A program made the position numbers and the translations under genes. This document shows positions 36,273 to 64,000 of a DNA stretch of 64,000 bases, one piece after another. The stretch is from Auricularia sp. M13 (taxonomy: Eukaryota > Basidiomycota > Agaricomycetes > Auriculariales > Auriculariaceae): positions 3,224,001 to 3,288,000 of the forward strand of contig CM073199.1 in NCBI GenBank assembly GCA_037042915.1. Reading direction: 5' to 3'. How positions within the stretch are numbered: position 1 is the stretch's first letter; every line of letters starts with the position of its first letter. A model generated the notes under the pieces. It was not told where the DNA came from, did not search any database, and saw nothing but the letters and a program-made list of their open reading frames with translations.

Positions 36273-36279
36273 ATACGGG

Positions 36280-40340: not shown

Positions 40341-40758
40341 CAGGGAGTCTTTGAACTAGTCTTACAAACGGTTCAGGCTCCCTGTTTATCCCTTTCACAC
40401 ACCCCCACCACTTACTTGCGTCGAGATTGCGACGGCTTCACCTGGTCCTGCCGCACGAACTCGTTCTCGTGTTCGCCAAGCAACCATTCCTGTTGCCTCA
40501 ACATCATCACTCACGCAAGCGAACCCCCATACATCTACATCGGTTTCCTTACCATTTTCCCCCCCTTCTTCCCTCTCTTCTCTCACCCTCTCGGAACGAG
40601 ACCCTGAGTCGGAACCCGAGTTTCATTCCTCACGTTCGCGAGAAGATTCAGATCAAGACGTCGCACCCCGTCGTTCCCGATTTGCTTCACTTGCACCACG
40701 CACTCCATCACCTGTCAATCGCATACCTCTCGCAGAAGAACATCCGTACTTCCAAGAG

Positions 40759-41587
40759 ATGGACGATGACGGAAACCCCCCCAACCTGCCAGGCAATCCA
40801 GAAATGGAAGCGGCCTTCGGCAACCTACTGTTCACGTTCATGCAGCGTGCAGTACAGAACCCTTCCCGCTGTGCCCCCAGGCCAGCAAGCTCCAGCCGCT
40901 CAACAAGCACGCGTTCCCCTCCCGTACCCAGACGAGAAGGGCGTGCCGCGATTTGACGGTGACCCATACAAAATCGGGACCTTCCTCGAGACGTTCGAAA
41001 ATCGGGCGCGACTAGCCGCGATTGGAGCCGACCGATGGAAGAAGGTTGTGGTTGATTATGTCAACCGTGACACGCGCAATCAGTGGATGCAACTCGAAGA
41101 GTTCGGTGATAACTCTACCTGGGAAGAGTTTAAGGCTCAAGTGTTGCGCGCGTATCCCGAGAACGGTACCATCAAGGAGTATACGTTCGAGGAGCTGAAG
41201 GAGAAGATAGATACCTGGAAGGGACGCTCGCTGCGCTCCCCCGAGGATGTCAATCGGTATACCCGAGAGTTCAACGCTTGTCAAAAGTCGTTGCAGCGTC
41301 AGGGCATCGTGCACCAAAAGCAAGAGCTCTACCTGTCGGCCTTTACAGCAGAAGAACGCGGGCGTATCGAGAGACGCCTTGAGTGGAAGTTTCCCGACCA
41401 GCACTATCACGAACTCGAGATTGATGACATTGCGGACGCGGTTCGCTTCCTGGCAAAAAACTCGATCGCTGAGATGCCGGGCGCGATTAAACTCGCGTAC
41501 TCGCCGATTGCAATTGATTCGCGCGAGGTCTCAGTGTCGGTGCAGCCCCGGCAGCCGTCAAACGCGAAGGTCCCGATGATCGCCTGA
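40759..41587 (+). pseudogene. Gag (frameshifted)
   Basis: The N-terminal part from the ATG at 40759 (MDDDGNPPNLPGNPEMEAAF) is in one frame. From about 40,865 the capsid-like part (GVPRFDGDPYKIGTFLETFE, WEEFKAQVLRAYPE) is in another, so one indel separates them. The DG-P-x-x-x-x-x-F-x-x-x-F-E pattern is typical of Ty3/gypsy Gag. It ends at 41587. Confidence 0.65.
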
Positions 41588-41749
41588 TCGCGAGTGTCGC
41601 ACAGCTCATCGAGGAAAAGTTGGAAGCGCGACTTGGCCCGGCTCGACCAGTGCATAATCACACGCACGCAACAGGCCCTAGCGGGTATACCGCGGGAAGA
41701 TTTGGTCCTCCCGAACGGGTGATACCACCTCCGGATTGGACACAACCGT

Positions 41750-42046
41750 TGTCTATTCTGTGACGAATCGGGACACATGATGCGTCAATGCCCCATGCGT
41801 CAGGAATACCTGAATGCGGGAAAGATAACGGAAGATCCATTGGGAAGGATGGTATTCCCAGGCGGACTGATGATTCCGGGTCCTCGCGAGAAGCCCATTC
41901 GCAAGCGTATTGACGAGTACTGGGAGGCTCAGGCACGGTCGCACTACTACGATTCCGTGATGCTGTTGGACGGCGACGTTGACCCAGTCGATTACGAAGA
42001 CGACCAGTTGCTCCCGAGGAACGCGAATACCAAGCGTTTCTTATGA
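41750..42046 (+). pseudogene. Gag CCHC zinc knuckle segment
   Basis: CLFCDESGHMMRQC (41750-41791) is an exact C-x2-C-x4-H-x4-C retroviral-type zinc knuckle. It is followed by a charged tail to a stop at 42046. It lies in a frame separate from the capsid segment. Confidence 0.65.
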
Positions 42047-42338
42047 TGCGCGAACAAGTGCACAACTACGAGACCACTGGGCGCTTTCGACCGAGCAATA
42101 AGAAGTTCGATGGTGTAGAACTTCCGGCACGACGCTGGGGGCCAGCCTCGCAGCAGAAGAACACGGAACGGGTACCCGGAATCCTCCCGTCCCGGCAGCT
42201 GCTCGCGCCAGCACTCCCGTCAGTCAACAAGCTCCACCTCAACGCGCACCAGAGAGGCCGGCCGATCTGCAGGTCCCAATTCCACTCGACGAGGTAGCTC
42301 GCAAACACGCCGACCTGACCAAGAAAGCCGCAGACAAG

Positions 42339-43091
42339 ATGGAAGAAGCCGGCGTGACATTTCGTAACAAGGCTCCCGCAACCGACGATTCGATGGCCGA
42401 ACAACTGTTCACGCGCGTACTCGAGCTTCCAATCACGGCAACGATTCGGGAACTGCTCGCGACTTCAGGAGACATCCGCCGCTTGGCACAGAAGTACACT
42501 ACGACGAGGCGAACTCCTGTAAGCGAAGTACATATCATCGACCAGGACGACGGCGACGACGGCGACGTCAATGACGTGTTTCAAGTTGTTGTGTGGGAAC
42601 AATCGCTGCAGCGGACGCCTTCGGGAGACTTCGCGGCGCACGAGTCGCTACCGTTGATGGTCATCACCGCCGACATCAAAGGAGTCCCCATCGAGACAAT
42701 CATCGACACAGGGTCGACTATCTGCTGCATGAGTGATTGCGTATGGAGGAAGATTGGCTCACCCGTGTACTCGGAAAAGTCAACCAACATGCGCGACGCG
42801 AATGGCAATGTAGCCGGCACCTTGGGCGCGATTGTCGACCAAGAAGTCATCATCGGAGGACTCAAGTTCTTCATCACCATACACGTCGTCCCGAACGCGC
42901 CATTCAGTCTCATTCCCGGAACACCCTTCTGCGCAATCGCCTCGATCGAAATCTCGTACCGCCCTTCGTCCGAAATGGTGCTCAAAATCACCGACCCAAA
43001 TACGGACAAGACCGTGCTTATTCCCGGATCCGCCAAACCGCGCCGCGCTGTCGCGTTCGCGCGCACTGTAGACTCGCCTAAGGATTTTTGA
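42339..43091 (+). pseudogene. Retropepsin-like aspartic protease
   Basis: LPLMVITADIKGVPIETIIDTGSTICCMS contains the catalytic D-T-G-S of retropepsins. It is followed by GGLKFFITIHVVPNAPFSLIPGTPF, the flap and the ILG-like second half. The frame ends at 43091, overlapping the next frame by 4 nt. Confidence 0.7.
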
Positions 43092-44448
43092 TGCGGAGAG
43101 AACGCGCCTCTCCGTTCCGCAATATACAACCCCTGTTCTTCTATGATCGTCTTGTGGGCGTTTCGCAAGATGTTCGCGAAAGGTTCAAGGACCCTGTCAT
43201 CCTTGCGATGTTTGGGTTCACGCTGCTAATGTCACTTCCCAAAGAGTTAGTTCCCGCTTGGGTTCGCGCTCTTGTTCTCGGGATTGCGGCAGGACACGCG
43301 GGTACCTTGGTTCTTCAGCAGCCGGAGACGGCTGCGAAGATAGAAGAAGTTGTGGAGGACAAAAACCCTTGGCGACGTCGACGGTCGCGCAGAGGTCGCA
43401 AGAGAGGTAAAGCAAGTGTACTAACCACCCCGACCAATGATGACCCCTCTGAGGGAGGGGATGGTGTACAAGAAGCTTATCCCGACGAGCGACTTCTCGA
43501 GAACCGACTCCGGTATCTCTACGGCTTTGGATTCACGGAACAAAACGGCAACGGAAACGGGACGGCCCAAACAATGCTCATAGAGGATCTGCCTAACCCG
43601 GAAACGGAAGGCAAATCGGACGATCAGCCTCAAGATCAGCAACACGCAATTACGATGACATCCACGACCATTCCGATTGAGGTCTACACGCTCGATTCGG
43701 ACAATCGGTTTGCGCAGCCAAGACCATACATCTTTCTCCTCAATGAAGATGGCACCCGAGTCGTCCCGCGAACGGAAGAAGACACGTGGGAACACGACGA
43801 AGACTTCGCTATGACGGTAACACTGACGATCGGCGACGACGCGCACTTCGCAATGCCTCCACGACCAGTCAAAACGGTACCGCCGCTACGATTGTCACGT
43901 GACGCGCGCAGCTTTCGGCACCCGCAAGCTATTCCCATGGGCGTCAGCGAACTCGAGTTTCCGTCACGCAAACCGGCTGGCATTGACACTGGCATCTTCG
44001 CGACTGTCTTTAACGTGATGGAACGGAGGCAGCCGAAGGGCGAAGACAAACAGCGACCCGGGAACGCGGCAGGACTCGGACGGAGGCCCTACAAGTCCGC
44101 GTTACTCAAGGTACACCCGCAGAACGCTCCGATGCCAGAGGAATACCGGATAGTACGACGACGACCGTCTGATCCGCTGATGACCTTGCCAGTAATCGGC
44201 GCCAAACCCGCGGATTTCGTGCCCACGGCATATATGACGACGGAACGAATGGCCGGTTTCAAGATTGAGGACTCTGCGCATTTGTGGGACGAGGAAAAGA
44301 AGCTGTTCAAAGCTATCGTCGCTGCCAATGAAACCGCGTTTGCATGGACAGAGGCGGAACGAGGTCGCTTTCGATCAGACTACTTCCCGCCTGTCAAACT
44401 CGCCGTGCTTCCGCATGTGCCATGGACCAAACGTCATGTGCCGATACC
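43088..44448 (+). pseudogene. Pol N-terminal region, cut by KDZ element
   Basis: A frame of about 450 codons with a hydrophobic segment near the start (ILAMFGFTLLMSLP, LGIAAGHAGTLVL), an R-rich stretch, and then family-typical pre-RT sequence ending HVPWTKRHVPIP at the KDZ target duplication (44441-44448). The sequence resumes in RT at 58,737. Confidence 0.65.
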
Positions 44449-45105
44449 CACCCCAGGCAGTCACCACGGAACTTAAAATACATCCGAAGGGGGGTTTCCC
44501 AGTATCAGAACAACCCCCCTTAAATTTGTCCGGCGGCCAGGCTGCGTCGGCCGCTGGCGACGTTGGCCGGCGGTGCCGTCGTTTAAGCGGCCACCGCCGC
44601 GCGCTCGTCGGCCGCCGCCCTCCGCTCATCAGCCATCACAGCCTGCTCACTGGCGGCCGCCCCCTGCTCGACGGCGGCCACCAGCGCTTCCGGCAACTCC
44701 CGGAGCTGGCGCTACTGGCCTCGGGACCGGTCGGAAAGATCCGAAAATTGATCGTCGGGCTGTCCAATGCTTCATCGGCCATCATGACCACCGGCGCTTA
44801 ATTTATTGTTCGCCGGCCAGCCTGGGAACTGGTGCTTCCTCGGCTTCGCCGGCGGCTGGTCGGAAATGGCCGATACTGGTCGGCGAACATTTTCCTCGTT
44901 CGGTGGCGAGCGTGCACACCGGCGCTTAATTTCTGTTCATCGGCTGGCCTGGGGACCGGCGCTTCCTCGGCTTCGCCGGCGGCTGGTCGGAAATGGCCGA
45001 TACTGGTCGGCGAACATTTTCCTCGTTCGGTGGCGAGCGTGCACACCGGCGCTTAATTTCTGTTCATCGGCTGGCCTGGGGGGCGCTTCCTCGGCTTCGC
45101 CGGCG
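44449..45105. repeat. Left terminal inverted repeat with ~125-bp sub-repeats
   Basis: The outer about 370 bp match the right end almost base for base. Inside are two and a part copies of a roughly 125-bp unit (GGCTTCGCCGGCGG anchors at 44,841, 44,968 and 45,092), each holding GGTCGGCGAACATTTTCC and GCGTGCACACCGGCGC. The units are probably transposase-binding arrays. Confidence 0.75.
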
Positions 45106-45117
45106 GGAGAACCTTAC

Positions 45118-45830
45118 TGTGCCCCACGCTTCCAATTGGAATTCCAATTGGAAACTGGAATTCCAATTGGAATTCCACTCATTGTAGAGTACCCTGTATC
45201 CCCAGTCAAACTGGTACAAATTGGATCAGAATTGGAACACAATTGTGACTCTCCAGCTTAGGGAATTGGAACTACTTTTCCAAGATTGGAAACAGGGGGT
45301 TTGTGTCCAATTGGAACAGAATTGGAACTGGAACTGAACTTTTACCTATAGAGAACTGAACTGAACGAGGAATTGGAACCAAATTGGAACCAGAACAGAC
45401 CTTTCCTCTATGGAGCAGGGCACATGGAATTGGAACACAATTGGAACTAGCTTACGCCCTGCTCTATAGAAGGTGAATGGAATTGGAACCGAATTGGAAC
45501 CAGGAACCAGGCCTTGTTCTATAGAGCAGGGCGTAAGCTAGTTCCAATTGTGTTCCAATTCCATGTGCCCTGCTCCATAGAGGAAAGGTCTGTTCTGGTT
45601 CCAATTTGGTTCCAATTCCATTCACCTCCTATAGAGCAGGGCGTAAGCTAGTTCCAATTCTGTTCCAATTCCATGTGCCCTGCTCTGCGAACGGAACTGG
45701 AACAGAATTGGAAGTAGGAACAAGGCCTGAACAGAGACAGGAATTGGAATAGAATTGGAACAACTGAAAGAATCAAATTTATATAATTCACAGGATTGGA
45801 ACGGAATTGGAACAAGGATGCTTTACTCTA
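45118..45830. repeat. AATTGG-rich array with 101-bp perfect inverted repeat
   Basis: The sequence is built from GGAATTGGAAC and its complement. 45369-45469 is the exact reverse complement of 45519-45619, with a 49-nt loop. Further diverged copies of CCATGTGCCCTGCTC and GGGCGTAAGCTAG follow. A related array lies at 54,175-54,475 near the other end. Confidence 0.7.
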
Positions 45831-45837
45831 AAAAGCA

Positions 45838-45928
45838 AGTGCCCAGAGCAGGATTTGAACCAGCAACATCAGTAATAACGGCCACCAGCCAGGCTCGAGC
45901 ATTATACCACTGCACCACTGAGCCATAT
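45838..45928 (-). tRNA. tRNA-like sequence (pseudo-tRNA or SINE head)
   Basis: On the reverse strand a good A box (TGGTGCAGTGGTATAATGC) and B box (GGTTCAAATCC) lie at tRNA spacing, and the B box sits in a plausible T-arm. The acceptor stem and anticodon stem do not pair well, so I doubt a functional tRNA. It may be a tRNA-derived pol III promoter captured by the transposon. Confidence 0.4.
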
Positions 45929-46204
45929 AGCAAGTTTAGAGCATTGTGTTATACATAACGATTTATTAGTGCCGCCAGTCAAGTCGGGCGTTGTAGCCCA
46001 GGCTCGGCACTCACCGGGCGCTTGTTGCCTCTTCGTCTCGTACCACCACCACCACCGGCCGTTCGGTTTCCGCTCGACGCCGCGCTCGCCGCCAGTTCCC
46101 CCGACGACACCCAGTGCTTGCAACCCGCGAAAAAAAAAAGGTACGCACCTCCGTTGGCCGCCCTTGGGCCCGATCTAATTTTTTTTTTCTCTTTTTCTTC
46201 ATTT

Positions 46205-47710
46205 TGTTATCCCCGTCGCGCCCGTCTGCCGCCCACCGCCCGCCCGCCGCTGTCCTCGCCCGCCTGCTCGCCGCTCGTTGCCCCCCTCGCTGCCGGCCGG
46301 CTCGCTGCCCGTCGCCCGCCTGCCGCCGTCGCCCGCCCGCCTGCCGCCGTCGCCCGCCCGCCTGCCGCTGTCGCCCGCCCCCGCCTGCCGTTGTCCGCAC
46401 ACCCGCCCGCCCGCTCGCTGCTCGTTATCCGCCCGCTCGCCGTCGTCCGCCTTCCCACCCGCTCGCCGCCCGTCGTCCGTCGCCCGCCCGCCGCCGTCGC
46501 CGGTCCACCCGTTGCCCGCCCGTCTCGCATCGCCCACCGCCCGCCCGCCGCCGTCCTCGCTCGCTCGCTCGCCGCCGTTCCGTCTTCGCCCGCTCGCCGC
46601 CCGTTGCCCGCCCGTCCCGCGTCGCACACCGCCCGCCTGCCGCCGTCCTCGCCCGCCTGCCGCCGTCCTCGCCCGCTCGCTCGCCGTCCTCGCCCGCTCG
46701 CTCGCCGTCCTCGCCCGCTCGCTCGCCGCCCGTTGCCCGCCCGCCGGCGTCCGTTGTCCGTCGCCCACACCCGCCTGCCGTCGTCCGCACACCTGCCGGC
46801 TCGCTGCCCGTCGCCCGCACGCCGCCGTCCGTCCGTCCTCGCCTGTTCGCCGCCCGTATCCCGCCCGTCTCGCGTCGCCCACCGCCTGCCTGCCGCCGTC
46901 CTCGCTCGCTCGCGCGCCGCCCGTCGCCCGCACGCCGCCGTCCGTCCGTCCTCGCCTGCTCGCCGCCCGTATCCCGCCCGTCTCGCGTCGCCCACCGCCC
47001 GCCTGTCGCCGTCCTCGCCCGCTCGCGCGCCGCCCGTCGCCCGCACGCCGCCGTCCGTCCGTCCTCGCCTGCTCGCCGCCCGTATCCCGCCCGTCTCGCG
47101 TCGCCCACCGCCCGCCTGTCGCCGTCCTCGCCCGCTCGCGCGCCGCCCGTCGCCCGCCCGTCCGCCGGTCCGTCGCCGCCCGTTGCCCGCCCGCTGCCAT
47201 CCGTCGTCCGTCGCCCACACCCGCCTGCCGTCGTCCGCACACCCGCCGGCTCGCTGCCCGTCGCCCGCACGCCGCCACGCTCGCCGCCCGTTGCTCGCCC
47301 GTCTCGCGTCGCCCACCGCCCGCCTGCCGCCGTCCTCGCTCGCTCGCTCGCCGCCGTTCCGTCTTCGCCCGCTCGCCGCCCGTTGCCCGCCCGTCCCGCG
47401 TCGCACACCGCCCGCCTGCCGCCGTCCTCGCCCGCTCGCTCACCGTCCTCGCCCGCTCGCTCGCCGCCCGTTGCCCGCCCGCCGCCGTCCGTCGTCCGTC
47501 GCCCACACCCGCCTGCCGTCGCCCGTTGCCCGCCTGCTTGCTGCCCGTCTGCGCGCTTGCGTTTCCCGTTGCCCGTCCGCCCGCTCGCCGTCGTCCGCCT
47601 GCCCGCCTGCCCGCCCGCCCGTGTCCGTCCTTGCCCGCTCGCTGCCCGTCCGCCCGCTCTCGTTGCCCGCCTGCATCCGCGCTTGCCCACCGCCGTCTGT
47701 CGCCTGTCGC
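46205..47710. repeat. 1.5-kb C-rich / G-rich strand-asymmetric tract
   Basis: Almost the whole stretch is made of short variants of CGCCCGC, CTGCCGCCGTC, CTCGCCGCCCGT and CGTCCGTC, with higher-order blocks of about 130 bp repeating (for instance the CGCGCCGCCCGTCGCCCGCACGC-type block around 46,913, 47,030 and 47,148). The plus strand is very C-rich with few A. Frames on both strands are open for hundreds of codons, giving Arg/Pro/Ala or Gly/Arg polypeptides, which is compositional. It ends about 45 nt before the ATG of the companion gene. Confidence 0.8.
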
Positions 47711-47753
47711 CTGCTCGCACCTGTCGTCCGACCTTGCCCTTCGTCGCTCAGCC

Positions 47754-50281
47754 ATGCCGCCTCGCCGTCCTTCCACGCGTACCCAGGTTGCCGCTGAGAC
47801 TGCAGCTGCAGCAGCCTCAGCCCCTCGTCGGGCTACACGTAGCAGGTAAGGTTTGCTGCTGCTGTTGATGAAGCATCAACTCATTTAATTATGCAGGCCC
47901 GAGCCGCTCGCATCGGCCTTGGCTCCCGTCTCCCGTCCAAGGAAGTCGAAGGCTGTGGCACAGCCTGAGCCTGTTCCTGAGCCCGAGCCTGAGCCCGAAC
48001 CTGAGCACTCTGTGTATGTTTCTGCTGTGATATATAATTGCTGTGTTCTAAGTCTGCCTTAGTCCCGAACCCAATGAAGTGAAGACAACAAAGTGAGTCT
48101 TGCTGGTGATTGTATGTGGAGTTGGGATCTTATTTGTGTGTGCAGGCGTGCTTCCAAGGCCAAGAAGACTTCAGTCCAGCGCTTGCAAGAGGACTTGGCT
48201 GCAACTAGCCCGACTAGACTTACTGGGTATGTTGCTATGCTTAGTGTTTGTCCTTGGCCTGATGGTGTTCAGTGTTGCTCGTGTTCTTCATGAGTCAGGG
48301 GACAGTGTAGCACCACCTGCGCCTCTTGCTCGCTCTTCATCCCCACCTCCTGCAGAGGATAGCTATGGTATCGATCTGTCTCCTGTGCGTCCTCGTGGCC
48401 GTGTCCCTGTCCGTGATGGGTCTGTTGCTCGTGGCCGAAGTGCTAGTCCACATATGCCTGGGCCCCGTTCTCGTCGCTCTAGTAGGGAGGCTACTCCAGT
48501 TGCACCTCCTCGACGCTCGCGCAGCACTTCACCAGTCTTGCGTGCATCTCCCCCCTCTGTGTCTGCCCCAGAGCCTGCGCCTGTTCCCAACCCAGAGCCT
48601 GCGCCTGTTCCCAACCCAGAGCCTGTGCCTGTCCCTGCCCCAGGGCCTGCGCCTGTCCCTGCCCCAGGGCCTGTGCCTGCACCTACACCTGTGCCTGCTG
48701 CTTCCAGTCGCTCGCACCATAGGCAGGAGCGCACCAAGCCCATGCAAGGTGCTTCACGCTCTGCAGGAGGGACCTTTCGTGGCAACAGGGTTGCACACGG
48801 TGCCATGCCTCGAGATATAGCTGGTACGTATCCTTGCCTCTCACTTGTTCAGGCTCTCACTGCATGTTAGTGACTGAGGATGCTGTCACCGAGGAAGCAA
48901 CACTTGGTGAGTTGTTGGGTGTTCCTTGTTGCTGTGATTAAGTTGTGTCTAGGTGTCAAGCTCCTTGTTTATGAGACTACCGCATGCGACAAGGACCCTG
49001 TCGTTGTTCGCTTCAAGGTTGTGCCCAGTCCTCGCGTCTCAGATATTGTGGCAGGACTCTCGTCGCGTTTGCTTCGTGCTGGTCCGCTGTATGTTCGTGA
49101 CGAGGAGCACTGGTGTGCGCTGGGTCTTCTTCCTCTGCTCGTCTCTATGTCAGATCCCTTTGTCTTTTGGGAGTCCCCACCCAGTGACAACTGCGCTGTT
49201 GCCAAGATTGTTCTGGTCTGTTCCTTTTTATGTGCTCATGTTCTGTATGCTGATATATATTTAGGAACATCCTTCGACTAGCTCTGCCTCGCTTGCGCCT
49301 GCTGTTGCACCTCTCCAGGCTCCTGCTTTTGCTGGCACTTTGCCCAAGAGCAAGTTCGATCGTGGGCATGAGGCTATCAGGGTTGTCCGGCAGGCCCTTA
49401 ATTATGACACCAAGTACGCCTCTCTTTTTGCTGGCAACTGCCAGGATGTTCTCCATGCCTATCGACGCTACCTTGCGATCAAAGAGGCTGAGATGGACTG
49501 GAGCAACCTTGTGACCTCAGGCAAGGCTCCAGCAGGGCTGGAGAAAATGTCTGTGACGCATTTAATTTCGTGCTTCATGTCCTACTCGACTTGGACCCAG
49601 TACGCTCACTTTGATGTTAGTATCCCTTTCTACCCCATGCTCTGACTTGATTCTCATGCACCTCTCTTTCAGATTGTCCGTGGTATTCAGAAGAAGCGTC
49701 GCAAGAGCGATGTCAACCTCAGTCTCAAAGATTCCGACTTACATCGCTATCTGCAGGGTCAGGAGCTCGCTCCCGAGCGTCTCGAGCAGATCTGGGGTTC
49801 CTATTCTGCCTCATATGAGCTGAAAAGGCTCCCAGAGGCAATCAGGAGGTGCCAGCAGGAGATCATTAACTCCAGCTCCCCTGTGTCTGTTGCCCAGCCT
49901 CTACGGGATCACACCCCTGCTCCACCTGCTCGTCCTCGCTCTCGCTCTCGTTCACCAGCATCTGCTCGCCCTCGTTCTCGTACACACTCCCCACTACCTG
50001 GGACTTCGCGTGGTCGCTCATTTACTCGCGATCGCACTCGCTCTCCTCCTCGCTTTCGGTCTCGCTCACTCTCTTCGCCTCGCAAGATCCGACAACGCCA
50101 CAGTTCGCCTCCATTGCGATCTCATACACCAACATCGCGCCACCAGTCTCGGCATTCCTCACCTTATTCACGTCATGCATCCTACTCACGACATTCATCG
50201 CCTGCAAGATCTTACACGTCTTCGCGGCATCGCGAGCGCTCACAGGAGGTGGACACCAGGCCAACAAAACGCCGTCGGTAG
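47754..50281 (+). CDS. KDZ-element companion protein, RS-rich, 9 exons
   Basis: Exons 47754..47845, 47897..48013, 48063..48092, 48146..48226, 48273..48823, 48871..48906, 48953..49215, 49265..49615, 49673..50281; 709 aa, every junction in phase. The start MPPRRPSTRTQ is followed by an EP-repeat (PEPVPEPEPEPEPE), an R/S/P-rich region, and tandem PEPAPVPN and APGPAPVP repeats. A globular middle follows (VKLLVYETTACDKDPVVVRF; FDRGHEAIRVVRQALNYDTKYASLF; YRRYLAIKEAEMDWSNL). The tail is an extended arginine-serine domain (SRSRSPASARPRSR ... SRHRERSQE) ending TKRRR. I do not recognise the globular part. Position and codon style suggest a conserved second gene of the transposon. Confidence 0.65.
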
Positions 50282-50436
50282 GTAGACTAGATTAGTATCT
50301 CTCTTATCTATCTTAATTCCTGCAGTAGTTTTGTGATCACTTTATCTCACTCTTTTGTCGGTTTATTTATTTGGTAGGTAGACTCGGGGAACCAATCTTA
50401 TGGACATTATTCACCCGCATTTATCATAGGTTCCTC

Positions 50437-52789
50437 ATGGGACTAAGGCAGATCACCCTCGGTTCTACTTGGATGGTGCTAGTACTATTACTTGTTCCTG
50501 GCACCATCGCCGCCGATGCATCTGCTCCATTCCCTGACATCAAGTTCTCGGTGTTCAGCAACTTTGTGCAGAACAACTTCCATGCAGACATCTCGCTGGC
50601 TGCAGTGCTAGGTTTTATGTTCACTGTGCTTCGCAATCCCGATCTACTCTCGCTTCATTACCGCCAAAAGTACAAAGGTACACCTGGCGATACAATCTCA
50701 AACATGTCTAGCTGGGGCACGTTTTTGGCCGATGTGATTCTGCGTCGCTGGGACTCTGCGGGTGTTGACGATCCAGCATCGACTATGCTTGCTGCTCCTG
50801 TTACACCTTGGCAACTTTTGCGACTCGACCAGCGGCGTCCCACCAAGTGTCAACTACTGGGAGTGGCAATCGAGCAGTTTGTGGCTCTCACTGGCCATGT
50901 TGCCACTAGCCACCAGCCTATTCCACACTTCGACGAATCTGCTATTCAACACATCGTTGTTCTTGTACCAGCACGCACAGATTGCCGCACGACAAACTGC
51001 GGATTGGCGCTGAAGCGCAATACGCATGGGGCTGATGCGACACCTATTACTGTGATCAACGGTACAGACATAGTTCCCAACTCGTTCCTACTTGGGGCTC
51101 TTTGCACATCGTGCAAGTCTATCTACTATCCAGATCACTCGACACATCTGAAGTCTCCAGAGGCGTCCACTCCAGCTGGGGCCAGAAAGCCTCGCATTCG
51201 CTACAACAATCTTTCAGCAGCCCACATGAAGATTGGGCGTAACCTTTGGGTCGACCAGAAGTTTGCATGGACTGTGTTGAATGGTCTCTATTCGTTTGCT
51301 TCCACAGCATCATTCACCGAGTTCTGGACAAAGTCGTTTTGGCCCGAAGGCTCTCTGTCTCGCAGGCAGATCTGGCAATGCTTCGTCCAGATGTCCACGC
51401 GGGAGATTGCTCTGACTCTTAACCGCCACTTTGTCACCGACGATGGACTGGCCATTACACAGGTGGTGGAACAGGCTAACAAGCAGTTTAATACCATTGG
51501 CAGTGTCCCTGGTGCGAAGGATCATGCGTGTTCAGAATGCACGCAACCATATCGAGCTCCAGCTCAGCATCTTGCTGGTGATGCAGCTGCTACTCTTGGA
51601 GTTGAACAATCTGCTGCAGGTGCCCCTGCTCTAGAGGGCCAAGTTGTGGATGCTGCACCAGGAGATGTTCGCCTGCGTCTCTCCAGTACACGCTCTGTGA
51701 CTGCAGATGTGATTGATGGAATTGTGATGGGACCATTGGTGAGCTCATATTCTGTGTTCTGCTCTCATACTGTGGAAAGAGCTAATTCATGTGCAGCACT
51801 GCGCTCTGGAGGATTGCTGTCAGCCACTCCTTGACGCATCTAAGGGTGTATGGTGCAAAACACATCATCAGCGGTTCGCCCACCTCTGCCATGTCAAAGG
51901 CTGCTCACTGCCCATCGTTCCTGACACACGAGCCTGTGTTGGGCATCAGCCAGAGTGGAAACACCATCTGGATCGCTTTGGAAGGCAGTCTGTCATTGGA
52001 ATGCGTCGTCGAATTCGCCAGGCTGAGCAGGAGACCAACGACTGGAATCCATCTTCTCGTTCGCGCGCTCAGCCTCCTGCCCACGATGACAATGGCGAGC
52101 CTCTCCTTCCAGAGAGGAAGAACTACTTTGCTCCAGGTCGTTTCTACTGCCTCGAACTCATGGTCAAACCATGTGGTGTCCCAACAGCCTTTGACTTGTT
52201 CGACAAATCAGAGTCGCCCTCCAAGATTATCGACTTCATCGAGCGCCATCACCCTGGCTCTAGCAAGTCTCAGTACTATATCATCGACAAGGCTTGCATG
52301 GTTCTTCGTCGTCTTGTCACATTGGGCAAATGGGACGAGTGGAAGAAGACCTCTCGACTTGTGGTTGATTCATATCACTATATCAACCATCGAGTCGCAG
52401 ATTACCTCTGCCGCAAGTGGTGTAACCCAGCTCCTATGGATGGCAGTGCTCCCAACTTGGTCATTTCTTCGACTGACGCCTCTGGACGTGTGCACCACAA
52501 GAGGGCCTTCAATACTCAGGTGTGTATTTATATTTATCGCCCTTGATCAGTCTTTAACTCTTGTCTCAAGGCAGCAGAGCAGCTGAATGCTTGGATATCA
52601 GGATACCAGCCCATCTTGAATCGTATGACAGTTTCCAACTTTAGGTGGTATGTCCTTGTACTACTGTTCCTGCATTATCGCACCGTCGAGGCACGCACAT
52701 CAGCAAGGGACCAGCCGATGGATGCTGCCGACGAGGACGATGGGGAACAGGATGTTGACGCCCTTGACGACGTTGAGACACATGAGTAA
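50437..52789 (+). CDS. KDZ transposase with CxC5 and CxC6 cysteine clusters
   Basis: Exons 50437..51738, 51797..52519, 52571..52789; 747 aa. The N-terminal helical part (FPDIKFSVFSNFVQNNF) leads to a CxC5-like cluster (TDCRTTNCGLALK ... CTSCKSIYYPD, about residues 190-235). A CxC6-like cluster follows (HCALEDCCQPLL ... WCKTHHQRFAHLCHVKGC, from residue 435). The C-terminal part matches KDZ transposases with IIDKACMVLRR, LVVDSYHYINHR, DYLCRKWCNPAP, RAFNTQAAEQLNAW and NRMTVSNFRW. The Asp residues in the first two motifs are likely catalytic; the third acidic residue is not certain to me. The first 25 residues look unusually hydrophobic, so the true start could involve an upstream exon. The frame is undamaged. 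Confidence 0.8.
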
Positions 52790-52982
52790 TTTTTGTGATG
52801 CAGATTGCACACTTGTATTTATTTTTGGCAGCCTTTTTCTCAGCCATGTATGAGCGGTACGCTATTTAAAAATAAGTAGCTTGTTTCGCTCGATATTGCC
52901 TGCTGCCGATGTGACGTCAAGGTCGTTTACATGTCTACTAAAACTTCCAGTGGTTGGCTCAGTGAGAATATAGTGGACCAGC

Positions 52983-53995
52983 TGTTGCGGTTTGCGGCAA
53001 TGTTCTTCGCCCACACCACTCCCGTGTTGTTTTAGCGACGCTCAGTCCTTGCTCGCTGTCCTCCATTCCCACCACTGCTACGCGCTCAAACCCTTGACCT
53101 CGGTCCACGCGCTCCCGCAATACCCTTCTGAGTCGCTCGCTGGACATCGCCCCTCTCTCATCGCCGCGCCAGTGCATCCCAGAACCGTCAGCATGCTCCT
53201 GCTGCCGTTTGGGCCGTCGGCTGTTCATGCCCGCTATTGTTGTGATTCGCGGCGGTGTCCTGCGTCCACGCATCTCCTGCGTCACCATTATCAACGCTCA
53301 GTCCACATTCGCCGCCCTCCACTGCCGCATGCTGTGACGACCACCTCGGTCCCATACGCTCCGGCAATGCAGCTTGGGCTGCACAGCCTCTGTTCTACAC
53401 TCGCCAACGGCCCCGTCGACTTCCCCACCACGCCGGCCAGTCCTCCATCCACTATGGGAGGTCGCGCGTGTGCTCGGACTATGGTACGCTCTTATCAGCC
53501 GTATTCCCACGCTCAGTTGCAGTCTCGGTTTTGCCACATTGCGGGCTCCACCCTCCGCGCTCTCGGTCTTGCCGTGCCGCGGTGTGTGCACTCTCTGGTC
53601 TCGGTCTCTTCCAGATACCTGGCCCATACCCTGATAGGCATGGACTCTAGTTTAGTATATTCCTTCCCACCTTCGCTTCGTCGCCGCTCTTGGTATTCAC
53701 CCCATTCCTCGCTTCTCCGAGGTTCCCTTGCGACGCCGATCCTCCCTCGGTCCCTCTTTTATTTATGTGTTTCCCTTCGGTCATCACTCCGGTGTTCACC
53801 CCTTCTATCCCCCGTCTCAGTCCTGGTATGGTGGTGTGGCTGTGCTCCCCTTGCTTCCGGTCACGCTATAGTTACCGGCTATTGCCGATCGGTGGACTCT
53901 AGGTTGGATCTTGACCGTCATATGCCCATAACATGCCTGGCCTCTCCTCCTCCTAAGTACCTCGTCTGGTCGGTCTTTTGGTGCACTCCGTGACA
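52983..53995 (+). mobile_element. Solo LTR D inside the KDZ element
   Basis: 1,013 bp beginning TGTTGCGG and ending GTGACA like the LTRs of element A, with shared internal blocks (TACCGGCTAT near the end, GGCATGGACTCTAG in the middle) but much divergence. No second copy or internal region adjoins, and the 5-bp flanks (CCAGC and GCTAT) do not match. It is a solo or recombined LTR of a related, older family. Confidence 0.6.
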
Positions 53996-54174
53996 GCTAT
54001 CGGCCTTTGGCACTGGCCTTGGTCTTGGTCCTGTGCACAATGCCCACTGCACTCCCGGTCGGTCAGACCCATGCTTTGTACCTTAGATTTGAGCCGGTTT
54101 GCCCACCGTCACTACATCTCGTCTTTTTTTCCCCCCATTGCAGAGCGTCGGTTTGGCGAGCACCCTGTTTACAG

Positions 54175-54475
54175 CACAACTGTCCCAAATTGGAACATAA
54201 TTGGAATTCCAATTTATTCCAACTATGTTGTCATTGCTTGGAAGACTTCTGATTCCAAACCTGCTAGTTGGAATTCAATTGGAATTCCAACTGGAATTCC
54301 AATTTACAGTTGGAATTCAATTGGAGTTCCAGTTGGAATTCCAATTGTAAATTGGAATTCCAATTGGAATTCCAACCGGTTCCAACTGTCAAAAACTGTC
54401 GAAAGGGTACTAGCAGTCATTTCCATCCATGTTCCAATTTGGAACTGGAATTCCAATTGGAACCATGGGGCACAG
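54175..54475. repeat. Second AATTGG/GGAATTCC array
   Basis: Same motif as at 45,118-45,830. It is followed by GGGGCACAGTGA at 54,468, matching in inverse orientation ACTGTGCCCC at 45,117, so it marks the inner edge of the original right TIR. Confidence 0.65.
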
Positions 54476-54485
54476 TGACTTACAG

Positions 54486-57400
54486 GCCGGCGGCTGGTCG
54501 GAAATGGCCAATACTGGTCGGCGAACATTTTCCTCGTTCGGTGGCGAGCGTGCACACCGGCGCTTAATTTCTGTTCGTCGGCTGGCCTGGGGACCGGCAC
54601 TTCCTCGGCTTCGCCGGCAGCTGGTCAGAAATGGCCGATACTGGTCGGCGAACATTCTTCTCCTTCAGTGGCGAGCGTGCACACCGGCGCTTAATTTCTG
54701 TTCGTCGGCAGGATGCTCACCGGCACTTAATCAGTTTAGCCAGCAGCTGGTCATCAATGGGCAATGGCCTCAATCCTTCAGCATTAGCTGTGCATATCAG
54801 TGTTTAATTTATTTTTGTTGGTGGAATGGTCATTGGCATTCAATTGGCTTTGCCAGCAGCAGCTCAGAAATGGCTGCTGATCTTTTCAAGCCATTGTCAG
54901 ATGCCATGCAAACTCGCCCTTAACGAATCAATCAATGATGAAGCAGGAAATGGCACTTAAGGCAATACTTGGCCACCAGCAAAGGAATGCTTGGCCGCTG
55001 GCGAAGTAGGCCGGCGAAAGAGTATTTGGCAGCGACACCACTTTTTCCAGCTGTCCAATGCAACAGAAAAGCCCTCAAAGTGTCTATCAGCATAGTTTTC
55101 AGTGCCTGGCAAAGGAACGCTCAGCTGCTGGCGAAGAAAGGCTTGGCGGCTGACGAACGCACATACCTCTGCCGGCGAACAAATATGTGGCCGCCGGCGA
55201 AGTGTTCAGTGGCGGATGGTGGCCAGAATACTGCTGAAATGAATCTCTTTGAAACTTCGACTGTATGAACCCATATATACTCACATGCTCCCAGCGAATT
55301 ATGAGACTCCCAGGCTGTCTGGATAGAGTGCTATTCATGCTTCAAGTGAGGGATCACAACATGCAAACCATTGCTCCAATTGTCAGGCTCGAATGATAAA
55401 ATTGTGCTGTTTGAGATCCCTGAAGGTGTTCCAGGTTACGCATTGTCAGTAGGTACGTTTGTTGGTCTCTGGTGCGAATGGCCACTTTTTGCTCAACAAT
55501 GATCAGTTCGCCCAGAGAGGGTTTGTTAATTATACCCTTAGCAAATCTTGCTGCGGGTTGAAGGACAACATAAAAGATTTTCGAGATATTGTGCAGGTCT
55601 GTATATTTTGAAATGATGGTGCAGTGCGCATTTTCGCCGGCCGGCCTTCCAAGGCCAATAGACCTCAGAATTTGAGGTCAGACATTGCTCCACGCACGTT
55701 GATTCATTTGAATGTGTCCATAACATTCAATTCTAGAGTTTGGCTGCAGGGGATGCGGAATTGGTGGAGGAATTGCATTCGCAAATCCGATCCTCAGTTT
55801 CTGTCCAGAAGTACCTTCACCCAGAGCGCATTTGTTAATTATATTCTTAGTAACTTAGGGTGCGTATGCCAGGACATCATACAAGATCTTGGAGATAGTT
55901 TTCAGGGCTGTATATTTTGAGGCCATGGTGGGGTGAGCGGTTTATAGCTCCAAGCCTTCCCACCCTCCTAGACCTCAGTACCCGACCTTATAACATGCTC
56001 TAAGCCCTTGGGACCATTGTATAGTATGCCTACATGAACCTCCTGAAGTTTGAATGCAATTGATTAAGAACTGGCGGAGAAATGACATGCGCATGTGGTG
56101 GAACTGAGTTGCAGCCAAGTTCACCATGAATTGCACATGCAACCTACCCCACCTTCCAGGTCAAGTGTCTCAGCGCCCATATAACACGTTATCTCAAGGA
56201 TAGCATTGGGTACATTGGTTCTCTGAGGTCTTAGTCCCTGAGAAGCATGCACTGGAGTGTGGAGTAGGTTACAACTGCTTATCCTGGTGAACAGACTGCA
56301 ACTCACACCACACTCCAGTCCATGCTTCTCAGGGACTGAGACCTCATAAAACTAGTGTACCCAATGCCATCCTTGAGATAACGTGTTATATGGGCGCTGA
56401 GACACTTGACCTGGAAGGTGGGGTAGGTTGCATGTGCAATTCATGGTGAACTTGGCTGCAACTCAGTTCCACCACATGCGCATGTCATTTCTCCGCCAGT
56501 TCTTAATCAATTGCATTCAAACTTCAGGAGGTTCATGTAGGCATACTATACAATGGTCCCAAGGGCTTAGAGCATGTTATAAGGTCGGGTACTGAGGTCT
56601 AGGAGGGTGGGAAGGCTTGGAGCTATAAACCGCTCACCCCACCATGGCCTCAAAATATACAGCCCTGAAAACTATCTCCAAGATCTTGTATGATGTCCTG
56701 GCATACGCACCCTAAGTTACTAAGAATATAATTAACAAATGCGCTCTGGGTGAAGGTACTTCTGGACAGAAACTGAGGATCGGATTTGCGAATGCAATTC
56801 CTCCACCAATTCCGCATCCCCTGCAGCCAAACTCTAGAATTGAATGTTATGGACACATTCAAATGAATCAACGTGCGTGGAGCAATGTCTGACCTCAAAT
56901 TCTGAGGTCTATTGGCCTTGGAAGGCCGGCCGGCGAAAATGCGCACTGCACCATCATTTCAAAATATACAGACCTGCACAATATCTCGAAAATCTTTTAT
57001 GTTGTCCTTCAACCCGCAGCAAGATTTGCTAAGGGTATAATTAACAAACCCTCTCTGGGCGAACTGATCATTGTTGAGCAAAAAGTGGCCATTCGCACCA
57101 GAGACCAACAAACGTACCTACTGACAATGCGTAACCTGGAACACCTTCAGGGATCTCAAACAGCACAATTTTATCATTCGAGCCTGACAATTGGAGCAAT
57201 GGTTTGCATGTTGTGATCCCTCACTTGAAGCATGAATAGCACTCTATCCAGACAGCCTGGGAGTCTCATAATTCGCTGGGAGCATGTGAGTATATATGGG
57301 TTCATACAGTCGAAGTTTCAAAGAGATTCATTTCAGCAGTATTCTGGCCACCATCCGCCACTGAACACTTCGCCGGCGGCCACATATTTGTTCGCCGGCA

Positions 57401-58084
57401 GAGGTATGTGCGTTCGTCAGCCGCCAAGCCTTTCTTCGCCAGCAGCTGAGCGTTCCTTTGCCAGGCACTGAAAACTATGCTGATAGACACTTTGAGGGCT
57501 TTTCTGTTGCATTGGACAGCTGGAAAAAGTGGTGTCGCTGCCAAATACTCTTTCGCCGGCCTACTTCGCCAGCGGCCAAGCATTCCTTTGCTGGTGGCCA
57601 AGTATTGCCTTAAGTGCCATTTCCTGCTTCATCATTGATTGATTCGTTAAGGGCGAGTTTGCATGGCATCTGACAATGGCTTGAAAAGATCAGCAGCCAT
57701 TTCTGAGCTGCTGCTGGCAAAGCCAATTGAATGCCAATGACCATTCCACCAACAAAAATAAATTAAACACTGATATGCACAGCTAATGCTGAAGGATTGA
57801 GGCCATTGCCCATTGATGACCAGCTGCTGGCTAAACTGATTAAGTGCCGGTGAGCATCCTGCCGACGAACAGAAATTAAGCGCCGGTGTGCACGCTCGCC
57901 ACTGAAGGAGAAGAATGTTCGCCGACCAGTATCGGCCATTTCTGACCAGCTGCCGGCGAAGCCGAGGAAGTGCCGGTCCCCAGGCCAGCCGACGAACAGA
58001 AATTAAGCGCCGGTGTGCACGCTCGCCACCGAACGAGGAAAATGTTCGCCGACCAGTATTGGCCATTTCCGACCAGCCGCCGGC
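54486..58084. repeat. 3.6-kb near-perfect palindrome
   Basis: 54486 to about 56284 is the reverse complement of about 56286 to 58084 with no length change (paired coordinates sum to 112,570 throughout). Arms appear identical over all translated stretches, but the central about 170 bp (56,200-56,370) carries many mismatches. Arms start with two copies of the TIR 125-bp unit and contain many scattered CGCCGGCGA-type motifs. No convincing gene lies within. Confidence 0.85.
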
Positions 58085-58736
58085 GAAGCCGAGGAAGCGC
58101 CGGTCCCCAGGCCAGCCGATGAACAGAAATTAAGCGCCGGTGTGCACGCCGCCACCGAACGAGGAAAATGTTCGCCGACCAGTATCGGCCATTTCCGACC
58201 AGCCGCCGGCGAAGCCGAGGAAGCGCCGGTCCCCAGGCCAGCCGATGAACAGAAATTAAGCGCCGGTGTGCACGCCGCCACCGAACGAGGAAAATGTTCG
58301 CCGACCAGTATCGGCCATTTCCGACCAGCCGCCGGCGAAGCCGAGGAAGCACCAGTTCCCAGGCTGGCCGGCGAACAATAAATTAAGCGCCGGTGGTCAT
58401 GATGGCCGATGAAGCATTGGACAGCCCGACGATCAATTTTCGGATCTTTCCGACCGGTCCCGAGGCCAGTAGCGCCAGCTCCGGGAGTTGCCGGAAGCGC
58501 TGGTGGCCGCCGTCGAGCAGGGGGCGGCCGCCAGTGAGCAGGCTGTGATGGCCGATGAGCAGAGGGCGGCGGCCGACGAGCGCGCGGCGGTGGCCGCTTA
58601 AACGACGGCACCGCCGGCCAACGTCGCCAGCGGCCGACGCAGCCTGGCCGCCGGACAAATTTAAGGGGGGTTGTTCTGATACTGGGAAACCCCCCTTCGG
58701 ATGTATTTTTAAGTTCCGTGGTGACTGCCTGGGGTG
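57880..58736. repeat. Right terminal inverted repeat with four ~125-bp sub-repeats
   Basis: The outermost part (about 58,375-58,736) pairs with 44,449-44,815. Inside are about four tandem copies of the 125-bp unit (GAAGCCGAGGAAG anchors at about 57,958, 58,086, 58,211 and 58,336), two more than at the left end. The innermost two are shared with the palindrome arm. Confidence 0.75.
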
Positions 58737-59840
58737 CCGATACCACCCTCTATTCGCGACAGTCTCATCGAGCTGTTAAAGGAGAAGATCAAAGCCGGCG
58801 TATATGAAGAGTGCAACTCCTCGTATCGCAACAGTTGGTTCTGCGTCGTGAAGAAAGATGGCAAGAGTCTTCGCATAGTGCATGATTTGCAGCCGCTTAA
58901 CGAGCATACCATTCGGGATGCGGGTCTCATTCCCCAGCCTGATGAGTTCTCGGAAGAGTGCGCGGGATTTACGCTATTGTCGGTACTCGACCTATTCTCA
59001 TCTTACGACCAGCAACTGATTGATGAGGCTTACCGTGACCTGACGGCGTTTCAAACACCTGTCGGGGTACTACGGAATGTTGGATTGCCAATGGGGTACA
59101 CGAACTCAGTTCCCATTCAGCAAGCAAACGTAACCTTCATCCTGCTCGACAAGATTCCGCGATTCACGAACTGCTTTATCGACGACGTTGTCGGGAAAGG
59201 CTCATGGTCGTACTACAAAAAAACGACGACGGACGTACCAGACGATCCGGACAACCCGGGAATACGGCGTTACGTATGGGAACACGCGATGACGCTAAAC
59301 CGGATCCTTCATCGTTTGAAGAAGGCGGGTGCTTCCGTTTCGGGAAAGAAGGCAATCATTGCACAGCCTGAGGCAGTCATTGTGGGGTATCGTTGCAACT
59401 TCGAAGGGAGACATCCTGAGAAGGGAAACGTCAAGAAGATACTCGACTGGCCGACGCCGCAGAATGTGACATATGTGCGCGCTTTTCTTGGGACGTGTGG
59501 CGTATCGAAACTCTGGATCAAAGACTTCGCGCGTGAGGCTCGGCCGCTGTACCAGCTCACCAAGAAGGACACAGAATTCGAGTGGACTCCCGAGTGCGAT
59601 GCAGCGATGCAGCGGCTCAAGAAGTTGGTCACGGAAGCCCCAGGACTCAAGCCGATTGACTACGCGTCATACAACGATGTCATACTCGCAGTCGACTCGT
59701 CCGTCATTGGTGTTGGCTACATTCTGCTACAACTAGGCGACGACAAGAAGCGGTACCCATCGCGGTATGGATCCATCACGTGGAACGATCGCGAAAGTCG
59801 CTATTCGCAGGCGAAACTCGAACTACATGGGCTGTTTTGA
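58737..59840 (+). pseudogene. Reverse transcriptase / RNase H 5' part
   Basis: IPPSIRDSLIELLKEKIKAGVYEE, SLRIVHDLQPLN, TLLSVLDLFSSYDQ, LPMGYTNS and CFIDDVVG are RT motifs, with FIDD as the YxDD box and LDLFSSYDQ holding the first catalytic Asp. The connection to RNase H (LAVDSSVIGVGYILLQ) follows. The frame stops at 59840 and the RNase H continues in another frame. Confidence 0.8.
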
Positions 59841-59852
59841 TCATTAAGGGCT

Positions 59853-61052
59853 GTGCGCGCATACATTTATGGCGTACACTCCTTGGTGGTAGAAGTCGAC
59901 GCGAAGTACATCAAGGGAATGCTCAACAACCCGGACATGCAGCCCAACGCGACTATCAACCGTTGGATTGCGGGCGTTTTGTTGTTCAACCCGAGAATAG
60001 TGCATGTCCCTGCGACGAAACACACGGGAGCGGACGGACTTTCACGAAGACCGGCAGCACCTGAAGACGAGGATGAGCCCGACGATGCAGACGAGTGGTT
60101 GGACAAGGCTTTGGGATTTGCGATAGAACTCGAAAACGCGCGAAGACCCGTCTTCGATCACGTGTTTGAGAGCACTCCGCGACTCGCAAAGGCGTTGGGA
60201 ATTCAGCTCAACGTGCCCCAGCGGCCACGTCATCAACAGGAAGTCTTCATTCTCGACGTATACGCGACGCTGCGTAGTGGTGCGAGGACGCAACCATCCA
60301 AAGTACCCCGCGGAGAGGAGTCAGACTCCGACAAAAACGCGCGCGAAAATGACGAAAATGAAGATTCTGGCGACGAATCTGTCTCAGGCGAGGAGGACGA
60401 ACAAGAGCAGCAAGAAGGACGTCCTGCGAGTCCCGAACGCGAAAAGGAGCAATCGCAAGAGCCAATGCAAGAGGCGAACGCGGAAACACGAATTCGGGAA
60501 ATAGCAACAGAACCTGAAGGAGAAGTCAAGATTCCTAGAGGCGCAAAAGGACGACGACACGACAAAGAGCTACCGACCATCTTCAAGTTCCTACAGTCGG
60601 GCGACCGTGACCCGAATATGCCGCGCGACAAGTTTCACGCGTTGGTACGCAAGGCATCTCAGTATTTCGTACTTGGCGACGTACTCTACCTGCGAAGCGA
60701 AGACGGAAGGCACAAGGCAGTGGTATTCGACAACGACAAGCGACTAGAGAAGATGAAGCTCACGCACGACGAACTTGGGCACAAAGGATACTTTCCGGTT
60801 CGCGCACACGTGCGAGAACGGTATTTCTGGCACGATATGGACACGGACATTCGCTGGTATCTACGCACTTGTCATCAGTGCCAGATTCGCCAATTGGGGC
60901 ACCAGCGGATTCCGCAAACGGTGCCATTCGTACCCGGCCTATTCTTCAAGTGCCACATTGATGTGATGCTCATGTCGGTAATGTCCGAAGGTTGGTGCAG
61001 GGCAGATGCGCGACAGCCAGCTTCCCGGAATGGAGAGCTCTCGCGAAAGTGA
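59853..61052 (+). pseudogene. RNase H end, integrase zinc domain, start of integrase core
   Basis: HVPATKHTGADGLSRRP closes RNase H. Acidic linkers follow, then HDELGHKGYFPV...CHQCQIRQL, the HHCC zinc-binding domain of integrase, and FKCHIDVM with the first catalytic Asp of the core. A frameshift near 60,990 moves the core to the next frame. Confidence 0.75.
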
Positions 61053-62014
61053 CTGGCGTCACTCTCGGGCGATTCATTTTCGAAGAGATACTTTGCCGCT
61101 GGGGAGTTCTCGCAGAAATCGCTACCGATAACGGCGCGGACGTCGTAAAGGCAGTCGATTATCTCAGTGAGAAACACGGGATCCGTCATATTCGCATATC
61201 GGCGTACAATTCGCAAGCAAATGGCATAGTCGAGCGCAAGCACTTTGATGTGCGCGAATCACTCATGAAGGCGTGTGGTACCGAACCACAGAAGTGGGCC
61301 TCTAAGGCACACTCAGTCTTCTGGGCGGAACGCGTGACGGTAAAGAAGCACCTCGGAATGTCACCGTATCGAATGGTACATGGATGCGAGCCCGTGCTCC
61401 CTCTCGATTTCGAACAGGCGACCTGGCTTGTCCCGCCAATGCAACCCCCGATGACAACGGAGGAGCTTATTGCAACACGGGCGCGTCAGCTGGAGAAACG
61501 AGACGAGGACATTGCTGCGATGAGGGAACGAGTGCGGCAGTTCCGCGCAAAAGCGGCTGAGCGTATGCTCAAGAGCTATCACGGACTCAAAGCACCGGAC
61601 AACATTGTGCCAGGCACGCTCGTACTGGTCAAGAACTCGAGAATCGAACTAGAGCACAATCGGAAACCAAAACCGAGATGGCTAGGGCCGTTTATTGTGC
61701 TCAGGAGACATTCGGGAGGATCATACATTTGTGCGGAACTCGACTCTGCAGTAATTGTGGATCGATTGCGGCAGCACGTGTACGCCTCTATCACGCTCGT
61801 GCAAATGTGCGTTACAACGTCAAGCAAATCGTGGAGAATACGCCGCAATACGTTTGGGAGCGGGCGAACGCGCCGCAACCAGTCGACGACGAAGAAGATG
61901 AAACCGAGCTCGACGCCGACCCCGGGACCAACGACAATTAACGAAGTTCATTCATGCCAACACTCTCGGCTCGGCAAAAATATATTTATTTTCGACTTTT
62001 GTTACACTCAGTAA
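60992..62014 (+). pseudogene. Integrase core, C-terminal part
   Basis: ATDNGADVVKAVDYL and SAYNSQANGIVERKH supply the second Asp and the Glu of the DDE triad. PRWLGPFIVLRRHSGGSYICAELD is the GPY/F-type C-terminal domain. No chromodomain is seen after it. Translation beyond about 61,800 is out of family frame. Confidence 0.75.
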
Positions 62015-62212
62015 GTAGTTCCGGAGCCTTTTTGCACTCATTTTTGCGTTTCAGACTTCAAGTTCACTCTGTACAACAAAGACGAGACAAGTTCGATGTG
62101 ATTGCGGGCGACTTTGGTCGCAAACGAGTACAAAAGGGGCGCGGAGGCCGATTCGGCGAAAACGACATACGGGACACCACATGCGAAACGCGAGAAGCTA
62201 CCTACGGGACAC

Positions 62213-63952: not shown

Positions 63953-64000
63953 TAAGACCAAACCTTCACTCCCTTTCGACCGACGCTCATCCCTCTTCTT

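Follow-up and report, generated by a model that had tools for sequence, protein, structure and literature searches.

Within the pol gene of a gypsy element of Auricularia sp. M13 lies a 14.3-kb insertion, and the question it raises is whether this is one giant KDZ transposon with CxC5/CxC6 transposase, as a preliminary description of the sequence proposed, or more than one element. The insertion was examined in a 64,000-nucleotide (nt) stretch of DNA (C7:3224001-3288000, the window), and searches covered the genome of 52.1 Mb in 14 contigs. It spans 44449-58736 of the window (14,288 bp), begins and ends with CACCCCAGGCAG../..CTGCCTGGGGTG, and has a terminal inverted match of 658/660 nt, identical at 654 of 656 aligned bases; together with the exact 8-bp target-site duplication (TSD) CCGATACC on either side, this bears out the matching termini, the inverted repeats of about 650 bp and the duplication first described. 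The host element carries the reverse transcriptase and RNase H domains of Ty3/gypsy elements (RT_RNaseH_2, E 1.1e-14; RVT_1, E 6.6e-06, slightly under the Pfam cut-off). A 300-nt query joining the two flanks across a single TSD copy was matched over 298-300 nt at 99-100% identity by 11 other gypsy copies, and these empty sites confirm that the pol frame is continuous once the insertion is taken out. Allowing up to 3 mismatches, the pattern of the outer ends was found at 18 places in the genome, two of them in the window, compared to 0 for a control pattern, so other copies share the termini, a point on which the preliminary description had staked its case.

The insertion with intact ends and TSD is thus real, but it consists of two nested elements. 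A block of 9,379 bp inside it, which starts with GAGAACCTTACTG, finishes with GTGACTTACAG and coincides with the gap of the short outer copies, is an independent transposon, because it has its own ends, its own exact TSD (GCCGGCGG) and copies of those ends elsewhere; the termini noted earlier belong to another element. Searching the genome with the inner ends returned eight, four left and four right, including the pair in the window. For the left ends elsewhere in the genome, the match to the 14.3-kb unit begins at position 659 (two ends) or 649 (one, where the flank letters agree by chance), for the three right ends it stops at 10037-10040, and no outer-element sequence was matched within the 1.5-kb flanks of these six. 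Two of them, on C11, are bounded on both sides by the exact 8-bp TSD GCCCGTGA, giving the inner element 8-bp TSDs at two sites, while a candidate pair on C1, whose ends are separated by 18 kb containing other sequence, showed no matching duplication. The terminal inverted similarity of the inner element is limited to an 11-bp match, ACTGTGCCCCA, starting nine bases in from the ends, and its left subterminal region contains a 103-bp inverted pair (45369-45471 and 45517-45619). The C11 copy (C11:2280588 to ~2287820) is 7.2 kb long and drew no match in the CxC5 search, which makes it a probable non-autonomous derivative mobilised in trans.

These data bear directly on the simpler explanation, namely one autonomous KDZ transposon of 14.3 kb with 650-bp terminal inverted repeats (TIRs), of which the short copies would be internal-deletion derivatives. 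Ends, TSD and genes do lie within one continuous unit of 14,288 bp, as that explanation expects. A deletion, however, would not duplicate GCCGGCGG exactly at both inner edges, nor does it fit with the six further inner ends (three left, three right) that lie in unrelated flanks, with short copies on C2, C6 and C9 that are palindromes lacking the same block, or with a gene in which no KDZ domain was detected. We rejected this explanation, which we regard as very improbable, on the inner TSD and the independent inner ends. The "650-bp TIR" exists as an inverted repeat, but it is the stub of an arm of about 2.45 kb that was cut by the inner insertion; a nested insertion in a long arm can therefore mimic a "giant transposon with 650-bp TIRs", and similar descriptions call for caution.

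With the inner element and one copy of its TSD removed, the outer element measures 4,901 bp and consists of arms of 2449 and 2452 bp, so that inverted repeats take up nearly its entire length, as in fold-back elements. Ten of the 18 outer ends form five pairs (window, C2, C6, C9 and C11), and the other insertions with 8-bp duplications that had been anticipated were found, the TSDs agreeing at 8/8 positions in the window, C2 and C6 and at 7/8 in C9 and C11. The ends of the C11 pair are 16.8 kb apart and carry palindrome pieces, separated by other sequence, whereas the short copies on C2 (4,523 bp), C6 (4,652 bp) and C9 (4,635 bp) are all palindromes and gave no match of at least 150 nt to element positions 659 to ~10037. 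Long inverted repeats are difficult to assemble, and the palindromes might be artefacts of assembly; this is hardly credible, given that head-to-head arm pairs occur at several loci and that the C2, C6 and C9 copies have distinct TSDs, a common centre sequence and substitutions of their own. A 1,071-bp arm query returned 34 matches, head-to-head pairs among them, and in seven pairs (C2, C4, C5, C6, C7, C9 and C11) both matched arms are at least 920 bp long. Since head-to-head pairs reach down to 86% identity, the palindromic form is not limited to young copies.

Arms were more alike within than between copies in three of the four copies compared. Within copies they differed at 20/2447 sites in the window, 11/2322 in C6, 18/2306 in C9 and 123/2193 in C2, compared to 1.0-5.3% between copies. 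Sites specific to a copy and shared by both arms outnumbered sites specific to one side and shared by both copies by 87 to 9 (window/C6) and 81 to 9 (window/C9), with smaller excesses for window/C2 (25 to 13), C6/C9 (20 to 10), C2/C6 (18 to 9) and C2/C9 (12 to 9). These patterns suggest that the arms tend to change jointly within a copy, strongly in the comparisons of the window with C6 and C9 and weakly in those involving C2, and the likeness of the arms within copies suggests that they are homogenised, for example by arm-to-arm conversion or repair. A family of whole-element palindromes could thus serve as a natural system for studying the homogenisation of long palindromes. In the C2 copy (C2:3554028-3558950) the arms differ by 5.6%, the left being nearest to the window copy and the right to C6 and C9, as if they came from different copies. 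Beside an outer-type right end, positions 8172-8915 of C4:3051800-3061790 are 75-85% identical to inner 3' non-coding sequence (window 52983-53237 and 53587-53911), which hints at exchange between the outer and inner families.

The relative order of the two insertions is undated, and the outer element has intact ends, TSD and arms even with the inner one inside it. Both facts would suit a palindrome that reached pol with the inner element already in place, the 14.3-kb composite having moved once as a unit. We consider this unlikely, as no second composite was found, the 1.5-kb flanks of the remaining six inner ends gave no outer-element match, and the three short outer copies that were fetched are without the inner element.

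The KDZ and CxC domains were reportedly defined by Iyer et al. in 2014, and the novelty of reading the CxC5/CxC6 protein as a transposase was judged without that work. Both genes of the inner element have the undamaged frames claimed for them: with inferred splice sites, the spliced models of three exons (747 amino acids, aa) and nine exons (709 aa) contain no internal stops. CxC5 (aa 172-301) and CxC6 (aa 425-490) of the larger protein both exceed their Pfam cut-offs, and this much of the earlier transposase claim stands, but the protein probably serves the inner ends and not the termini for which it was proposed. It has three acidic residues of the kind expected in DDE/RNase H-like transposases, D (VIDG), D (IDKAC) and E (AAEQLN), conserved in 34/34, 20/21 and 14/17 aligned homologs, respectively, for which a catalytic role is proposed; EQLN is present in 11 of the 16 homolog models that extend past NTQ, the remaining five reading NTQV. 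A first AlphaFold model (predicted local distance difference test, pLDDT, 59.5) gave no meaningful fold match and was not counted as evidence of absence, and a predicted structure of the CxC5/CxC6 protein appears to resemble RNase H-like integrases and transposases. On the strength of the conserved D, D and E and of this predicted structure, the protein probably acts as the transposase of the inner element itself.

The recognisable KDZ domain implied by the preliminary description was not detected in the gene. PF18758 was found neither in the spliced protein nor in the family hits of 25 CxC5/CxC6 homologs at E<=10, HMMER filters discarding weak matches, and none of the 149 KDZ matches in the genome falls at the candidate transposase gene. 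Because PF18758 was not found, we do not class the inner element as a KDZ member. Profile alignment by hhalign against 122 KDZ sequences placed IDKAC of the inner protein opposite YDIAC of KDZ with a score of 21.9, compared to 12.1 for the reversed profile, but 5 or more of the 60 column-shuffled controls exceeded it (maximum 26.0), and neither Pfam nor profile comparison showed kinship with KDZ. Alternatively, the CxC5/CxC6 protein could be an accessory, the mobility of the inner element depending on a transposase, KDZ or other, supplied in trans. Pfam labels CxC5 and CxC6 as KDZ-transposase-associated, the genome has its 149 KDZ matches, the 8-bp TSD is held in common, PF18758 is missing from the protein, and a paper on F-box genes, which deals with CxC7 in fish Zisupton, carries the hypothesis that the zinc-chelating CxC domain recognises DNA or chromatin in transposition (PMC12062965, citing Iyer 2014). 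Against this, D, D and E are conserved in a model that appears integrase/transposase-like, and scans of gene 1 and the inner open reading frames (ORFs) 48100-48870 and 52992-53993 gave no transposase family, so we rate an accessory role as rather improbable.

Gene 1 encodes a Pro/Ser/Arg-rich product with no Pfam match above cut-off. Of the matches with a named organism, those nearest to both inner genes are from Auricularia subglabra (58% identity for the transposase, 38% over 630 aligned columns for gene 1), and the C-terminal part of the A. subglabra model related to gene 1 matches the N-terminus of the transposase. The closest named relatives of a canonical KDZ core of the same genome are from A. 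subglabra and Exidia glandulosa, and these affinities point to a jelly fungus of the Auriculariales. A further family, 53% identical, lies at C7:2754258. Loci L062 (2912-7167) and, reversed, L063 (2912-6718) hold near-identical copies of a divergent CxC5 repeat (99.4% over 3.3 kb) with a variable repeat array toward one end; the shared unit was identified by comparing both copies and no TSD was found, which argues against every CxC5 copy residing in an element of the inner type.

The outer element is linked to KDZ by its ends. A looser pattern search found 22 outer-type ends, including a pair 20.9 kb apart (C3:2136282-2157165) with an 8-bp TSD (CCAATGAA) and a 530-bp TIR identical at 520/530 positions. 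The first 22 bp of this relative are identical to the outer ends and similarity is about 84% over ~187 bp; canonical KDZ (PF18758) matches lie within the C3 unit at C3:2151383-2152076, the unit being known from three short pieces. The outer element therefore shares its ends and TSD size with an element enclosing PF18758. Its own arm ORFs of at least 150 aa (151-247 aa) are built on 126-bp repeats, and the four that were scanned gave no Pfam match above cut-off, so it appears to encode no transposase. Together, these results suggest that the outer element is probably a non-autonomous KDZ fold-back. The inner transposase had no tblastn match in the loci fetched at outer ends, which were not scanned for KDZ. 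Near the outer-type end C11:1049149 a KDZ match lies about 5 kb upstream, and another canonical match (C7:3299619-3300332) lies on the contig of the insertion, ~17 kb downstream of it and outside the window.

Both insertion layers rest on ends, duplications and independent copies, and we have good confidence in a nested explanation with three layers, gypsy, fold-back and CxC5/CxC6 transposon, together with the transposases proposed for them. On this explanation a recent gypsy copy was struck in pol by a probably non-autonomous fold-back of ~4.9 kb that left CCGATACC behind, and the left arm of the fold-back holds, 650 bp in, the CxC5/CxC6 DNA transposon with its TSD GCCGGCGG. The CxC5/CxC6 protein would act as an RNase H-like D,D,E transposase on the GAGAACC/CTTACAG ends, making 8-bp staggered cuts, and gene 1 may supply an accessory protein. 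A canonical KDZ transposase from the family of the C3 element may mobilise the outer palindrome in trans, to judge from their common ends and TSD length of 8 bp.

Mobile KDZ elements with clear ends and TSDs of 8 bp have been described before in Cryptococcus, so intact ends are not new, nor are complete boundaries as uncommon for KDZ as had been supposed. KDZ1-KDZ3 of C. neoformans, shown to be mobile, resemble the elements described here in their fungal host, large size (9-11 kb) and TSDs (8 bp in KDZ1, 4-8 bp in KDZ2 and KDZ3) and, as regards the outer element, in having TIRs; unlike the inner element, with CxC5/CxC6 and no detectable PF18758, they encode KDZ and CxC1 and have TIRs of 139-241 bp, and unlike the outer element they are not whole-element palindromes (PMC12810828). 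Zisupton also makes 8-bp TSDs, and the 5'-CA..TG-3' ends of Kyakuja resemble the outer CACCCC..GGGGTG, but Kyakuja-1_LB and Kyakuja-2_LB have 7-bp TSDs and no TIRs, compared to 8-bp TSDs and 2.45-kb arms here; in Kojima's main text on Zisupton and Kyakuja, "CxC" and "cysteine" each occur 0 times (PMC12730594). Galileo and the Mutator/Foldback element Tm1 (PMC4168063, PMC3169594) are reported to have very long inverted repeats that make up much of the element; they are animal elements of P or Mutator type, whereas the outer family is fungal and a KDZ domain lies within the one coding relative that was found.

In a sporeless strain of Pleurotus ostreatus, a 6,792-bp CxC5/CxC6 insert disrupts poMSH4, and its authors reported no KDZ gene near CxC5/CxC6 regions, saw CxC2 with KDZ and tentatively suggested a role for Copia (PMC7641404). 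By description, this insert resembles the inner element in being a discrete fragment placed within a gene, with a single CxC5/CxC6 ORF (739 aa, compared to 747 aa in Auricularia), a microsatellite array, further copies and no KDZ gene found nearby. The passages on the insert give no ends or TSD, in contrast to the defined ends, 8-bp TSDs, independent copies and candidate DDE core of the Auricularia element. The 1.5-kb minisatellite of the inner element is strongly strand-biased, and the Pleurotus insert likewise has a microsatellite cluster. By analogy, the Auricularia locus offers an alternative to Copia, in which the CxC5/CxC6 protein would itself be the transposase of a discrete element; now that one such element has known ends, a TSD, copies at other sites and a candidate for the catalytic triad, the mover of such mushroom fragments becomes testable. 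We advance only tentatively, as somewhat short of an even prospect, that CxC5/CxC6 proteins, hitherto labelled only as cysteine clusters associated with KDZ transposases, form a separate DDE transposase superfamily with its own elements and 8-bp TSDs across mushroom-forming fungi, behind inserts including that of sporeless commercial Pleurotus.

Table 1. Coordinates of the nested elements and their host in the window.
Feature	Position	Strand	Remarks
Host gypsy, upstream part	42339..44440	+	aspartyl protease ORF 42339-43091 (Pfam), then frame reaching insertion
Outer TSD, left copy CCGATACC	44441..44448	.	in gypsy pol; exact 8 bp; empty sites known
Outer left arm, outer piece	44449..45106	+	final 8 bp are the left inner TSD copy
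Inner TSD, left copy GCCGGCGG	45099..45106	.	exact 8 bp
Inner CxC5/CxC6 DNA transposon	45107..54485	+	9,379 bp; ends GAGAACCTTACTGTGCCCCA...TGGGGCACAGTGACTTACAG
Inner left subterminal repeats, TTCCAATTGG type	45117..45830 (approximate)	.	contain inverted pair
C-rich minisatellite of inner element	46240..47740	+	upstream of gene 1; 55% C
Gene 1	47754..50281	+	709 aa; 9 inferred exons: 47754-47845, 47897-48013, 48063-48092, 48146-48226, 48273-48823, 48871-48906, 48953-49215, 49265-49615, 49673-50281
Candidate transposase gene	50437..52790	+	747 aa; inferred exons 50437-51738, 51797-52519, 52571-52790
Inner right subterminal repeats, TTCCAATTGG type	54180..54475 (approximate)	.	
Inner TSD, right copy GCCGGCGG	54486..54493	.	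exact 8 bp
Outer left arm, remainder to about palindrome centre	54494..56284	+	
Outer right arm	56285..58736	-	inverted repeat of 44449-45106 plus 54494-56284
Outer TSD, right copy CCGATACC	58737..58744	.	exact 8 bp; empty sites known
Host gypsy, downstream part	58745..62014	+	reverse transcriptase / RNase H ORF (Pfam) followed by additional ORFs

In the surroundings, gypsy ORF 43088-44476, which reaches into the insertion, had no Pfam match. Comparison of 36001-44448 with 58737-64000 gave a single weak inverted match of 137 nt and no direct repeat that would pair as gypsy long terminal repeats (LTRs), which may fall beyond the compared stretches. Rfam had no match at gathering score over 44441-58744, the 18 listed being microRNA families over inverted repeats, and ARAGORN (bacterial code) found no transfer RNA in the window. 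Elsewhere in the window, a 362-bp direct repeat of 100% identity (34345-34706 and 38073-38434) is LTR-like and encloses ~3.4 kb, and it is adjoined by a second direct repeat (28860-29628 and 33574-34344; 771 bp, 99.7%). An inverted duplication of 1729 bp (6745-8473 and 13962-15689; 99.94% identity) extends over the 3' portion of ORF 12873-14960; the 5' portion of this ORF has a Pfam match to the Plavaka transposase (E 7e-75).

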